From Xestospongia bergquistia (taxonomy: Eukaryota; Porifera; Demospongiae; Haplosclerida; Petrosiidae): a stretch of DNA of 64,000 nucleotides. The notes under the pieces were generated by a model, which was not told the DNA's origin, ran no database searches, and worked only from the letters and a program-made list of their open reading frames with translations. This document shows positions 39,790 through 57,480 of this stretch, in pieces. Positions within the stretch are counted from its first letter, which is position 1; every line of letters begins with the position of its first letter. The stretch is taken from the NCBI GenBank assembly GCA_963965975.1, contig OZ014419.1, forward strand, positions 2,268,701-2,332,700. The letters are read 5' to 3'. The position numbers and the translations under genes were made by a program.

Positions 39790-40515
39790 ATGAACAAGCT
39801 TGATGTATATAGTACTGGTAACAGGTGGTTAGAAGCTCAAGTGTTGTCTATCTACTAGTTGTTCTATATACCAACATCATTACTGTCCATATATTCAATA
39901 AGTTATATTTTCATTACCACACACAGCTAATAGTATTAATGATACAATTGTTACTAGGGATGCAGAGATCAATAGTGGAATATTTAGTCAGTCAAACAAT
40001 AGTGGTGATCATGTACATAGGTGTTATGTAAGAGTTGAAGATATTAAACAAAACCAGTAACTGGTAAGTGTTGGCAACTACTTTTACTATAGTTACATGG
40101 TGTCATATGTAATCCAGTTCTATCTGATGCTGATGGATATGTAGTCAATGTCACTAGTGACACACACACACTGTGACACAACAGGTGTACTGGAGTAGGA
40201 ACCAAAAAGTACTATAAGTAACAATTTAATTATGAGTACACACTGATATCATAGTATGTTCTTAATGTTAGTCCATTGATTAGAACTTCACAATCTGTTG
40301 CTAATTTTCACATACCTTCCAACATCACAGTGTCACAGTATGTAACATACTACAACATTTCTTATTGTCATCTTGTCTAGAGTCAGTTAATATGAAACAA
40401 ATTAAGAGATTGTTTAGTGGTATGAACTATACCACCACAGTGGAAGCTGGTAATATATTAGGAGAGTCTAGTCCAGTAATGATATATCAAGACATATCAA
40501 CAACAAATAATTAAT
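39790..40515 (+). pseudogene. Decayed Ig/FN3 receptor copy
   Basis: A chain of fragments in the same order as in the inverted gene at 50893-54690: the end of Ig 1 (near 39825-39905, aagctcaagtgttgtctatc), the end of Ig 2 (near 39960-40050, frame GDHVHRCYVRVEDI), an FN3 piece (near 40105-40165, LSDADGYVVNVTSDT) and an FN3 end (near 40420-40505, GMNYTTTVEAGNILGESSP). Stops and missing segments between them rule out a working gene. Orientation and order show it came from a duplicated receptor gene. Confidence 0.75.
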
Positions 40516-41133
40516 AAAATGAGAGTGACTTCCAGAGATGCACATCTTCTTCATGAATTAATATGTTATATGTGGATGCTCTTTGCAACTGTGTTTGATC
40601 ACTTTTATTTTGATGATAAGAATTTATTTTCTTTTTGTCATTGGTTTATGTCAAAGTTGTCGAATAATTAGCAGCTGTTTCAATGATTTGATAAAACAAG
40701 ATATCTTTAATCTCTAGTGAACTATTAAATAATATTATTATATAGCTATAAAAGAAATGGCTGGTTCATAGAAGCAAATAGATTAAATTAAATTTATAGA
40801 CAGTGGTATGGCACAGGAAGTGCATTGGAGTATGTACTTCCGGTGCTGTACGCTATTTAAAAGGAAAAGATACAACACATTGCTGTACACTTGTACTTGA
40901 CCTTCATTAATTATCAAAATTTCATTTCCTTTCTAACATACAACAGAATCACTGACCTTCCTACCTCTGTTTTCCTCTATACCACTGACATCAAAAGACT
41001 TAAGTTTTGAGAAGTCAGACAATGCACTGTTGTGTTCATATATAGTGAGAAATAATTATAGCTAGTAGCAAGAGAATTATCCTTAGACAAAATCCTTTTA
41101 TTAACAGTACTTATAATCAAGATACAATAAAGA

Positions 41134-42120
41134 ATGGCAGAGTGTCAAGGCCTTGAGAGTCAGCTAGATCAGTCAAAGTTGAGAGATGGTGAACAATCTA
41201 CTTCTGGGGAGTCAAGCAGTCTTACGTTTACTTGGAGAAAGGGTCCAAATGCTCCATCTAAAATGTTCAAGGGGACTTGTACAGCTCATGGGAAGAAGGC
41301 TTACTTCTCAGGATGGCAATCTAGTGAAGTTGTGTACGAGTTTGATGCAGAGACTGATGAGTGGCTGAAATTACCAGATTGTCCCAACACAAGGTTTGGT
41401 CTTGTTGTTATCGATGGTCTCCTTACAGCTGTGGGTGGAGATGATAGTATGTGGTATAGAACGAACAAACTATTGAGTTACAAAGACAATAAATGGGTCC
41501 AACACTTTCCCTCCATGCCCACCAAGCGGATGTCATCTGCTGTAGCTTGTAATGGTAGTATATTAGTGGTGATTGGAGGTTACGAGAAGATTCAGAAGGC
41601 TGATGGTACACCAGCCAAAAGGCTTGAAACTGTAGAAATAATGGATATTAAGACACGAAAATGGTTCACTGCTCCCCCACTTCCATTTGGTATTACTGAT
41701 GCAACAGCATCTATCAGTGGAGATACTCTCTATGTCATGGGTGGTTATACAACCTCCTATTCTTATGATAAAGTAGTATCGTATTGTTCTCTAAAAGCAC
41801 TTCTACAATCTACTACACAAGAATCATCCACTAAGGTGTGGCAGAAGACTGAACAGCTTCCTGTAGATTCAGCTTGTTGTGTAACTGTCAAAGGACAGTT
41901 ACTAGCTGTTGGAGGTGTGAAATTCAACTATGATGAGATGGCACCTATTCGCAAGTATAATTCAGTATGCAATTCCTGGGACATTGTCAGTCATATGACT
42001 ATTGGTCGCTCCAAGTGTCTGGCTACAGTTCTTTCTGATGACCAATTGATGGTGGTAGGTGGATTTATTGATGGACGGGGCAATAACACTGACGAAGTCG
42101 AAATTGCTTCCATTATCTAA
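41134..42120 (+). CDS. Kelch-repeat protein, single exon
   Basis: An intronless frame of 328 residues. Five or six kelch blades are marked by double glycines after hydrophobic strands (LLTAVGGD, ILVVIGGYE, LYVMGGYT, LLAVGGVK, LMVVGGF) and by the W-x-x-L/P pattern (EWLKLPDCPN; KWFTAPPLP; VWQKTEQLP). There is no BTB or BACK domain before them, only a 33-residue polar N terminus, so it is a free-standing beta-propeller, probably a protein-binding adaptor. In a region where every other gene has many short introns, the lack of introns suggests a retrocopy or an intronless family. A degraded second copy of its promoter and first codons lies at 46.7-47.3 kb. Confidence 0.9.
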   Translation: MAECQGLESQLDQSKLRDGEQSTSGESSSLTFTWRKGPNAPSKMFKGTCTAHGKKAYFSGWQSSEVVYEFDAETDEWLKLPDCPNTRFGLVVIDGLLTAVGGDDSMWYRTNKLLSYKDNKWVQHFPSMPTKRMSSAVACNGSILVVIGGYEKIQKADGTPAKRLETVEIMDIKTRKWFTAPPLPFGITDATASISGDTLYVMGGYTTSYSYDKVVSYCSLKALLQSTTQESSTKVWQKTEQLPVDSACCVTVKGQLLAVGGVKFNYDEMAPIRKYNSVCNSWDIVSHMTIGRSKCLATVLSDDQLMVVGGFIDGRGNNTDEVEIASII

Positions 42121-54690: not shown

Positions 54691-54699
54691 CTAACATAG

Positions 54700-57480
54700 C
54701 ACTTCTCTCTGATAGATCTAATGTTAAAATATCATACTTTGTTGATATATAAACTTGATATATACATGACAAACATTGGGTACACTACTACCAATTACTA
54801 TAGCATTATACTATTAACATTATTAGTACAATAAATATTTAATAAAATAATTTTGGTGGAAATGCTAAGATGAATCTAAGCACTAGCAAATATTATTAAA
54901 ATGGATTACAGTAAGGTCATCCTTATTTTGTAAATTAAGTGTATTGCATGGTAAGTTAAAACTAATGTTTTAATCAATTCATGGACAGTTTGGTTATATG
55001 TGTCCTGTCCTACGAAGTAGCAACATTGTATCAACATAGCTGGTATTAATATAAATGGTATTAGTCCATATAATACAGAGTCTATGGTTTTCACTTGTAA
55101 GTAATCACATCTACAAACAGTAAGTGTATTATAAAATCTTTTCCATAGTTGGTGGTTACAGTAACAAATTTTACTGCCACTCCAACCATGTTATCAGTAC
55201 AGTTAACAGGGGCCACTCCCTTTCTACATATTTGCTGTAAGAGCTTACAATATGATACAACCTTCAGTACCAGGACAATGGAGTATCATGCAACTACTAC
55301 AGGCTCAACAAAAGATGATTAGTCAGAGTACATATACATTTTATTGTTAGTTTTCTATCGTTTTAATCAGAAAATTCAAAACAGATAGACACAGTTAGAC
55401 ATGCACGTTACTAATGGCAAGAAATACTCAATACAGAAGTAAATGGACATTGTATTTTCATGTTTACAGGGCACATTAGCGGAGGTTAACGATGTTATCC
55501 GTACTTTTCAGAGGTTTCCTCTTACTTGCTTGAAAGTCAAATAAAGATAAAGGTCAGCTAGGTATTGTTCTTTGTGTGAGTTAGAAAAGAATAGCTTAAG
55601 ATATTCTATTGAAACTGCATCCCTTATCTGTGCATGACTGACTAGCTACCCAGTTACCATTGATTGGAATGGAGTAGAGAAAGAAGCCTCATGTAAGGGC
55701 AGGAGCAAAGTGGGTGTGACTGATTAAAAGACTTGCTGCAATTGGCATAACACCCCAGCCAACGACTTTCCTTTATTTCTGTCTCCTATTCTCCTGTAAG
55801 ATCATATCGTGGTAGTGAACCTACAAGTTGGCTACAAGTGCCTTTAGCTCTATAAAGTCCTGTGTTATGATTCATTACAAACCACTCTATGTGAGAGGCT
55901 TATTTCTCTAGTGAAAATGTTCTACCAATCTGGCCTATACTGGTGTTTTTATCTATCCTATTTATAAGAAAGAGTCTATCACACGGTCAGTTTATTCGTT
56001 TGAGGTCATCAATTATTTAAATATTTAATGATTCAAGCTTGACATTTTGTATCAGTTATCTCTTTCTCATCTTTGTCATAGAGTAACTGGCTGGAGTTTC
56101 CTGTACACATTTTTCTGTGTTTCCAATGTCAGATATGGAGAGGTTCGACTTTGCTTGCCAATTAAAGGCAGCTGGTCTGAGAATATGTGTTCAACCATCT
56201 TTTGCGGCTCCTTTTATTGCACTGATCAAACCTGGAATGGTCTGTCATACTCAGAGAAATAAGTCATGTGATAGTCAAATGACAAGATGTTGTTATGTTA
56301 ACAACTTGATAGTTACATCATGATATCTCACAATGTCATGTGATAATCATGTGATCTTCTCTCTCTGTAGATAGATAATGATGCTTGTTATTGGATCATA
56401 GTCAGGTATTTGCTAACATCAATGAAACTCTCTCTGGCATGCGAAAGAGGTTGAAAGAGAGAGAGAGAAACAACCTGCAAAGCAAGTTGTAAGATATTTG
56501 ACTGAAAAAGGGAATCTCTGAAAATCAGATAGAGTGACATAAAAAGAGATAGATTAGATGTACAATACATAGATGACTATCAGATTGATGGAAAGGTACA
56601 TTTAGACATGCGTGTTACTAATGGACAGAATACTTAACACAGAAGTAAATGGACACTGCATTTTTATATTTACAGGACACATTAGTGGAGTTAATTATTA
56701 ACATATGTTCTGTTGGTAAACTCAAAGTCTCCTCTAATGATGCTATGAGCAATGGCCTGACTGATGAATCTGTTGAAACCTTCTGAGAATCTCATGATGA
56801 ACATGTGCTATGCCTTATTTTATTACTGTGGCCTACGATAAAGCAATCAAGATATTTGCAGCCTTCATCCATATTGATAACCAGAGGACTCTGGAGTAAG
56901 AATGGGTGAATAGATGGATGGATGGGTAGATTGATGGATGTATGGGTGGGTAGATTGATGGATGGATGGATGGACTTAGATTTTAAAAAAGAGGAATAGA
57001 TTTATAGATGATTGGACAAAGAGAGAGATATAGATAAGTAGTTAGAATTTCTATCTACTAGTCATGATGGTTAAAAGACTCTCATAGTACTTGAAGTTGA
57101 TGAACAGTGTAAAATTGTGCATTTTGATGGAGTTCAAAATAACATATGAGCTAGACAAGTTGAAATAGTGGGTCAACCTGCTACTTTGCCTAGTACTGTT
57201 GCTATGCAAAAAGAGTGTGAAACTGAGGTACTTAGATTATTTAGATTATTGACTTCACAGTTAAAAAGAGAATTGATGCATTGTTATATCATTCATTCAT
57301 TCATTCAACCAATAGCAAGCATTTATTCATTCATAGAATTTTATTCATTTATCTCTCTATCCATCTATCTTTTCAGGTATTTGGTAGTCTCCTGTTGTCT
57401 ACCACTCATTTCAAAGAAGGAGAAGAAGAAAAGACAGATTCATATCATAATATAAACACTACAAATATTAGTTATATATT
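54700..57480. other. Gene-poor stretch with exon relics
   Basis: Near 55295-55385 there is a scrap of the receptor 2 micro-exon and its intron (caacaaaagatg..ttagtcagag). Near 55393-55490 and 56590-56695 two copies of an unidentified exon pair lie in the same direction. A frame at 56117-56323 (MERFDFACQLKAAGLRICV) and others to 57480 read like protein but break often and match no family I know. ATGG simple repeats lie at 56900-56970. Confidence 0.4.

Follow-up and report, generated by a model that had tools for sequence, protein, structure and literature searches.

In vertebrates, the paired receptors of the KIR, LILR and FcR-like families carry closely similar ectodomains on opposing tails and evolve by birth-and-death, and the inhibitory members recruit SHP phosphatases through immunoreceptor tyrosine-based inhibitory motifs (ITIMs) instead of carrying a phosphatase themselves. 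Vertebrates also possess three receptor phosphatases of the R2A/LAR type, and an architecture like that of the LAR phosphatases is typically seen in receptors for cell-cell contact. Sponges reject foreign grafts; the candidate usually named for the recognition involved is the aggregation factor, and we know of no receptor established as deciding the rejection. The accessible part of a report on the Amphimedon grafting transcriptome describes the aggregation factor as not significantly enriched (PMC5450542). Here we analyse the Ig/FN3 receptor genes in a 64,000-bp stretch of the genome of the sponge Xestospongia bergquistia (contig C9, positions 2268701-2332700; hereafter the window), together with their relatives in the 146-Mb assembly of 21 contigs, all of which was searched. 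The window covers an eroded part of a family of cell-surface receptors in sponges that is very large and still evolving; two of its types bear alternative signalling tails. A recognition role for the family is likely, and on balance we lean towards a birth-and-death family for self/non-self or foreign recognition, in which tails are swapped in the manner of paired receptors.

An earlier note, made from the letters of the window, had proposed that receptor genes are duplicating and dying there. Birth-and-death is strongly supported, and on a far larger scale than is visible within the window: the search for further copies along the chromosome that the note had suggested revealed a pair of neighbouring genes repeated at three other places on C9, as well as arrays genome-wide. 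The note had recognised neither the phosphatase connection of the family nor a frameshift in one of the genes that it took to be intact.

Two alternative tails on B-type and C-type ectodomains

Receptor types are named below after the window genes A, B and C, which were modelled from splice sites and reading frame. A genome search with the C-type Ig1 exon returned 141 matches, 89 of them near-full, in arrays on C9 and C2. A-type Ig1 exons number at least 78 at ≥51% identity, besides the window's own, and B-type Ig1 exons four (100, 85, 85 and 85% identity; the remaining rows at ≤42%). In total, the family comprises at least about 170 near-full Ig1 exons of the three types. An apparent giant FN3 gene, with over 20 FN3 exons of similar score spaced ~449 bp apart, was also noticed in an A-type region (C5:326266-337311).

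Both the B-type and the C-type ectodomain are combined with either of two tails, a tandem protein tyrosine phosphatase (PTP) or a short tail with tyrosine motifs. The B-type gene of locus L051 (L051/L072) has tandem PTP domains downstream, the first (D1) with WPDHG and HCSAGIGRTG and the second degenerate, and the B-type genes of L053 and the window carry the short tail. Among C-type genes, L019 runs on into the PTP sequence of L073 (HCSAGVGRTG, WPDHG), and the short tail was read through from L013 into L074 as well as in the C-type genes of L051 and L052. Three motifs with a tyrosine are present in this short tail: approximately CEPYx[IL]H and Y[DE]E[CS], followed at the end by one that resembles YEx[MI]. 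As in paired receptors, closely similar ectodomains are found on different signalling tails. Judged from their sequences, L051/L072 and L019/L073 would be receptor phosphatases of the R2A/LAR type, with an Ig+FN3 ectodomain, a single transmembrane segment and tandem PTP domains with the D1 signature; the solved structures nearest to D1 are PTPRS and LAR/PTPRF. No match to PTP D1 at E ≤ 1e-3 was found across the window, so the window genes are not assigned to this type. The B-type gene of L052 (C9:2194001-2204000) keeps the N-terminus of the PTP and the linker, the catalytic core of D1 being absent in the sequence examined; it is probably a decaying or pseudo-phosphatase form.

Genome-wide, the short tail has 74 matches, most of them without a stop, and the phosphatase signature exon has 106. 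Tails were assigned to the C-type Ig1 exons of the C9 and C2 arrays by the nearest exon on the strand, 89 near-full Ig1, 60 short-tail and 25 PTP exons being kept. By this assignment, 48 of the 89 Ig1 exons pair with a short tail and 21 with a PTP; the other 20 are unpaired (13 blocked by another Ig1 exon and seven without a tail). The array at C9 1.98-2.15 Mb has PTP in 16 of 19 cases and no short pair, a single short-tail exon lying at 2,059,400. The arrays at C9 2.15-2.73 Mb and C2 4.95-5.12 Mb have the short tail in 14 of 21 and 22 of 28 cases, respectively, and no PTP, and both tails occur at C2 6.83-6.96 Mb (12/21 short, 5/21 PTP). For the A-type, a PTP exon follows 9 of 10 Ig1 exons at C5 0.62-0.75 Mb, and 69 of the 78 Ig1 exons among the matches listed have no following PTP exon.

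Identities were then compared between genes labelled by tail, the labels being taken from the pairing and, for some short-tail rows, from array membership. For three of seven PTP-labelled genes, the nearest Ig1 exon lies in a short-tailed gene (94-96% nucleotide identity); one such pair is L023 with a PTP and L025 with the short tail, whose Ig1 exons agree at 96%. The nearest gene also shifts from exon to exon: L016 is closest to L020 in Ig1, to L035 in Ig2 and to L017 in FN3-1. Exons are copied and mixed between genes, and the arrays grow, invert and decay; the ectodomains sort by tail only partly.

The two tails bear on a different explanation, in which the family is an expanded LAR-like PTP family for ordinary adhesion and tissue cohesion, and the short-tail members have lost their PTP and drift. 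The solved structures closest to D1 and the missing D1 core of L052 would fit this explanation, but the short-tail exon pairs with 48 Ig1 exons and most of its 74 matches in the genome are free of stops, both of which speak against it. We regard it as rather unlikely, even though sponge members of the immunoglobulin superfamily (IgSF) are treated mainly as adhesion proteins in the accessible part of one paper (PMC11999971).

Divergence among paralogs and relatives in Amphimedon

Divergence and selection were studied in 26 C-type loci (L013-L038), which are among the best matches to Ig1 of gene B. Exons missed by the search patterns were excluded, and L025 and L033, which are the C-type genes of L051 and L052, respectively, were each counted once. 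In the 13 distinct genes with all four exons, nonsynonymous and synonymous divergence (dN/dS) were 0.149/0.197 in Ig1, 0.234/0.291 in Ig2, 0.066/0.134 in FN3-1 and 0.061/0.091 in Ig3, and amino-acid divergence among these paralogs peaks in the two distal Ig exons. The corresponding values for FN3-2 were 0.071/0.056, from the eight genes in which this exon is readable.

Individual codons were examined with a purpose-written site test of model M2a against M1a. Twice the log-likelihood difference amounted to 24.4 in Ig1 (24 genes), 20.7 in Ig2 (15), 6.8 in FN3-1 (20), 14.0 in Ig3 (17) and 12.4 in FN3-2 (8), and the maxima of the null simulations were 3.7 and 4.6 in Ig1 and Ig2 (8 runs each), 0.8 in FN3-1 (4), 3.7 in Ig3 (8) and 2.3 in FN3-2 (7). 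The statistic lies above the null maximum in all five exons and is largest in the distal Igs, though Ig1 was also represented by the most genes. When Ig1 and Ig2 were divided into halves, each with its own tree, the signal was kept (sums of 23.2 and 39.9, respectively). Each of the five exons has codons with a dN/dS ratio (omega) above 1, and the signal for them is strongest in Ig1 and Ig2. Concentration of such codons in the distal Ig exons had been considered and was overturned by the FN3-2 test and the further null simulations. Purifying selection throughout, an outcome that the earlier note had named as arguing against recognition, does not match the site tests.

A search with a spliced C-type protein gave 59 proteins, 58 of which are named Amphimedon queenslandica; PF00102 was found in five of the 59 and the short-tail motif series in six. 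Tyrosines in the short tail are conserved in both species. In a FastTree phylogeny of the shared ectodomain, for which two of the 59 relatives were too short and 16 own genes were sampled from about 90 of the C-type, the 18 own rows (16 genes) formed one clade against 57 Amphimedon proteins with a support of 1.0. Conserved one-to-one orthologs in related species would likewise have spoken against recognition according to the earlier note; there were none in this sample, and the copies are lineage-specific. Concerted evolution could give the same tree picture as independent expansion. For the B-type, the ectodomain protein of L051 found one FN3-rich match at 24% identity, and the gene B protein (437 aa) had no match at E ≤ 1e-3 among 1,898 candidates in a search that needs shared 5-residue words. 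With that dependence on shared words in mind, the B-type may be read as lineage-restricted or fast-changing.

Species-specific copies and codons with omega above 1 would fit an arms race with microbes equally well. In that case, the distal Igs would track microbial surfaces, the arrays would diversify like other innate receptors of sponges, and allorecognition would play no part. However, there is no pointer to a microbial ligand in the present results, and the LAR-like phosphatase architecture is one of cell-cell contact receptors. Microbe or symbiont sensing thus seems to us a credible but somewhat doubtful explanation, to which the expansion of other immune families in sponges, described in the accessible parts of three papers (PMC10855680, PMC12909245, PMC4772301), lends some weight. 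The adhesion explanation gains from a site signal that is not limited to the tips and loses from the recurrence of the short-tail motifs in Amphimedon and from the distal Igs being those that diverge most in amino acids.

Receptor genes and remnants in the window

When exons of the relatives were searched against the whole window by tblastn, both genes and scraps were matched (E 1e-48 to 1e-3), and the reversed window, used as a control in the same search, gave no match at 1e-3. The receptor-gene pieces reported earlier in both orientations at 39.7-55.4 kb are thus real, and members of one family that are intact, dead or reduced to fragments adjoin there.

Gene B (48791..50475, plus strand) encodes 437 amino acids in eight exons, namely a signal peptide, Ig1, Ig2, one FN3, a transmembrane segment and a short tail. 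Its frame is open with phases kept, and its paralogs are L010, L011 and L012. The short tail (50361..50475, plus strand; CEAYNIH ... DEYI) is related to that of the C-type. The three near relatives of gene B all lie on C9, each beside a C-type gene (L051, L052 and L053); identity to L051 and L052, both of which have PTP sequence, is 94.5% and 94.9% over 1.37 kb. Relative to L053, gene B has lost ~1.65 kb, a deletion that took away Ig3 and almost the whole of four FN3 exons and left the frame unchanged. At the junction (50005..50041, plus strand), positions 4,930 and 6,580 of L053 are joined, so that the former Ig3 splice acceptor now meets the last bases of the FN3-5 exon. The Ig1 exon (48932..49264, plus strand) has 22-23 amino-acid-changing against 2-4 silent differences to the three paralogs, and the corresponding counts for Ig2 and three relatives are 3-5 and 0-5. 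The Ig1 counts are suggestive, and we do not claim positive selection on that exon alone. Gene conversion into Ig1 was considered and set aside, as no donor is visible among only four B-type Ig1 exons.

Gene C (50896..54674, minus strand) is a dead full-length C-type gene with a signal peptide, Ig1, Ig2, FN3, Ig3, four FN3 domains, a transmembrane segment and a short tail, and corresponds to the inverted, broken paralog described earlier. Compared with the C-type gene of L051, it carries 14 indels that shift the frame, distributed among eight of 11 exon segments, and in-frame stops in Ig3 and in Ig1; its tail exon is 93% identical and has no indel. The C-type genes of L052 and L051 differ by no frameshift and no stop in the same 11 segments. 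B and C form a pair that recurs on C9 at ~2.154 (L051), 2.199 (L052), 2.318 (window) and 2.378 Mb (L053). The two genes run in the same direction in L051 and L052 and are tail to tail in L053 and the window, which indicates that an inversion separates the two layouts.

Gene A (43851..46357, plus strand; the model is supported by homology) consists of seven exons for a signal peptide, Ig1, Ig2, FN3, FN3 with the transmembrane segment, and a tail, and is broken in exon 5. A 7-bp deletion (45326..45350, plus strand), placed by paralog alignment, leads immediately to a TAG, and no transmembrane segment remains in frame. The seven missing bases are present in all five aligned paralogs (L055, L056, L058, L059 and L061; five of eight other genomic matches were aligned), and exon 5 is open for 163-181 codons in four of the five. 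Gene A is therefore not intact and, as assembled, has no membrane anchor, so that only one of the "two intact receptors" of the earlier note, gene B, deserves the name. Two ways of restoring the frame by a cryptic intron were looked for by eye. An acceptor at the TAG has no GT donor in the needed phase, and a weak acceptor just past the TAG with a phase-0 donor would excise FN3 strands, which is unlikely. Intron 1 of gene A has a GC donor (GCAAGT) instead of GT at window position 43933.

Instead of being a new pseudogene, gene A might be a functional receptor that the frameshift has turned into a secreted, soluble form. Ahead of the stop, the frame is open for the signal peptide, both Igs and an FN3, but it ends within an FN3 domain, and none of the five aligned paralogs shares the 7-bp loss, for which an assembly slip is possible; we hold this to be very improbable. 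The start of gene A resembles that of gene B, yet A belongs to a subfamily separate from B/C, and among the matches listed, relatives of its Ig1 lie on C8, C5, C1, C2, C3 and C14, with no further one on C9. A and B are thus not tandem duplicates of each other; the duplicating unit is the B+C pair. The shared exon phase noted before holds for the extracellular exons of A (as far as the break) and B, which are joined in phase 1. The shared tail motifs hold for B and C, whose tails are related (42% identity, E 2e-4), and not for A, which has its own tail.

The remaining pieces agree with the decayed copy and scraps of the earlier description. The decayed C-type copy (39749..40505, plus strand; ~0.75 kb) retains remnants of Ig1, Ig2 (E 1e-7), FN3-1 and FN3-3 (E 4e-10), and a piece of FN3-2 within it (40,231-40,340; E 3e-5) is inverted. 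A scrap at 43066..43176 (plus strand) covers the border of C-type FN3-3 and FN3-4; it is 88% identical in nucleotides to 52,206-52,300 (E 2e-30) and also matches L053. Another (55029..55378, plus strand) holds B-type FN3-4 and FN3-5 exons with 84-87% nucleotide identity to L053 6,136-6,645. With C dead, A frameshifted and scraps on the flanks, all window copies might be non-functional remains, the working members of the family lying elsewhere. This we consider unlikely, as all 437 codons of B are open, the loss of 1.65 kb did not disturb its frame, and the tail exon of L053, which is open, matches the tail of B.

Other features were seen around the receptor genes. An open Kelch-repeat reading frame of 329 codons (41,131-42,120), unrelated to the receptors, lies between the scraps, and a tandem repeat with 19-bp spacing (TACATAG-type unit) occupies 47347-47736 between genes A and B. 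Ribosomal RNA genes (small subunit, 5.8S and the start of the large subunit) are found at 60484-64000, between the B/C pair of the window and the copy at 2.378 Mb. A minus-strand reading frame with many SNTEQ(S/P) repeats (32105-33616) stands upstream of a segment at 30,959-31,315, which we take to be SUN-like.

Possible roles and comparison with known systems

Several observations weigh against a recognition family with paired-receptor-like tails. As tails were paired by the nearest exon, individual pairs may be wrong. Ig1 identity averages 0.900 between genes of the same tail class and 0.867 between genes of different classes; the PTP-labelled L028 and L038 are similar to each other, and neither comes close to a short-tailed gene. 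In four exons, Ig1, Ig2, FN3-1 and Ig3, omega averages less than 1 (0.49-0.81), and the highest mean, 1.26 (interval 0.67-2.85; eight genes), belongs to the stalk exon FN3-2. The comparison of dN/dS between Ig and FN3 exons that had been proposed earlier was thus borne out in part: codons with omega above 1 do occur in Ig exons, but also in FN3-1 and FN3-2, and mean omega in the Igs does not differ significantly from that in FN3-1 or Ig3 (bootstrap P 0.05-0.36). As each of the five exons shows a site signal, the tips are not singled out by it; gene conversion is able to inflate site tests, and the higher dS of the distal exons speaks for homogenised stalks no less than for selected tips. Ig1 was called an Ig from its cysteine and W pattern alone; it gives no Pfam Ig match above the cut-off, and its AF2 models, from paralog alignments of 28 and 10 rows, have mean pLDDT (the model's confidence score) of 47.9 and 33.4. 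The B-type PTP copy of L052, as described, lacks the D1 core. Finally, an ITIM-type motif, scored as [SIVL]xYxx[ILV], is absent from the tails of window B, window C and the L051 C-type gene and from the juxtamembrane part of the L051 B-type gene. The motif does occur once each in the C-type tails of L052, L074 and L053 and in the tail piece of window A, and three times in the L073 juxtamembrane region. YxxM is found in the tails of L051 and of window C, and two of the three Amphimedon tails examined have it too; window B does not.

We nevertheless prefer the recognition family with swapped tails. In such a family, the two distal Ig domains would bind a variable ligand on another sponge cell or a microbe, kinases would phosphorylate the short tails and SH2 proteins would be recruited to them. 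By analogy with vertebrate paired receptors, PTP-tailed receptors of the same specificity may oppose the short-tail signal. Within the window, B would serve as a shortened short-tail receptor; C is dead, and A as assembled is without a membrane anchor. Allorecognition in particular is less probable than recognition with this tail logic. Only tentatively do we propose a paired-receptor self/non-self system of the sponge's own, in which diversified Ig tips are shuffled among well over 100 genes, sit on either a receptor phosphatase or a conserved three-tyrosine tail, and have expanded together with SHP-like and Src-like genes.

SHP-like loci, in which two SH2 domains are combined with a PTP, form a cluster at C3:1265457-1283528 and also occur at C3:916188-917681, C7:8318067-8319560 and C6:199640-201523; most consist of one open reading frame of 521-629 codons, one has a stop, and that on C6 is in pieces. 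They possibly represent an expansion of the effector phosphatase of ITIMs. Ten clustered SH2-kinase (Src-like) genes of a single reading frame are located at C6:1621395-1697212, with one more at C6:7992405-7993502. SHP-like and SH2-kinase genes are the kinds of partner that such tails need, and may be linked to them.

A fast-diversifying receptor family with two tails provides named genes and exons for typing in graft crosses. It would also place both the logic of paired receptors and the coupling between recognition and tyrosine phosphatases close to the root of the animals. If the tentative proposal of a self/non-self system is true, graft rejection or symbiont discrimination in sponges would have a basis at the level of receptors, with an enzyme as the tail in place of the vertebrate ITIM. 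In the open-licence papers searched, no description of the family or of its alternation of PTP and tyrosine tails was found.

Close relatives are the FN3/PTP proteins of A. queenslandica (UniRef, e.g. A0A1X7TAG7), which are alike in C-type architecture at 38-60% identity and include both PTP and short-tail forms, as here; they differ in forming a separate clade and are listed under automatic domain names only. The PTP-tailed members resemble R2A/LAR-type receptor phosphatases (PTPRF, PTPRS, PTPRD) in having Ig followed by FN3 domains, one transmembrane segment, a tandem PTP and a degenerate second domain (D2). Unlike those, they stand in arrays of tens, the short tail outnumbers PTP (48 against 21 paired C-type genes), and the three window genes have no PTP. 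Vertebrate paired receptors (KIR, LILR, FcR-like) are alike in that similar ectodomains are placed on different tails, and no homology of the ectodomains is claimed. The locus layout resembles that of Hydractinia Alr, for which no phosphatase tails are described in the accessible parts of two papers (PMC11067881, PMC11999971) and for which polymorphism has been shown, whereas a single assembly is considered here. In the accessible part of the work on the fuhc locus of Botryllus (PMC12065747), the FcoR genes are likewise clustered IgSF receptors of one family with alternative tyrosine signalling motifs. The link to allorecognition is established for FcoR only and not for the sponge family; the FcoR tails alternate between an ITIM and a hemITAM or core motif, and those of the sponge family between a PTP enzyme and a tyrosine tail.

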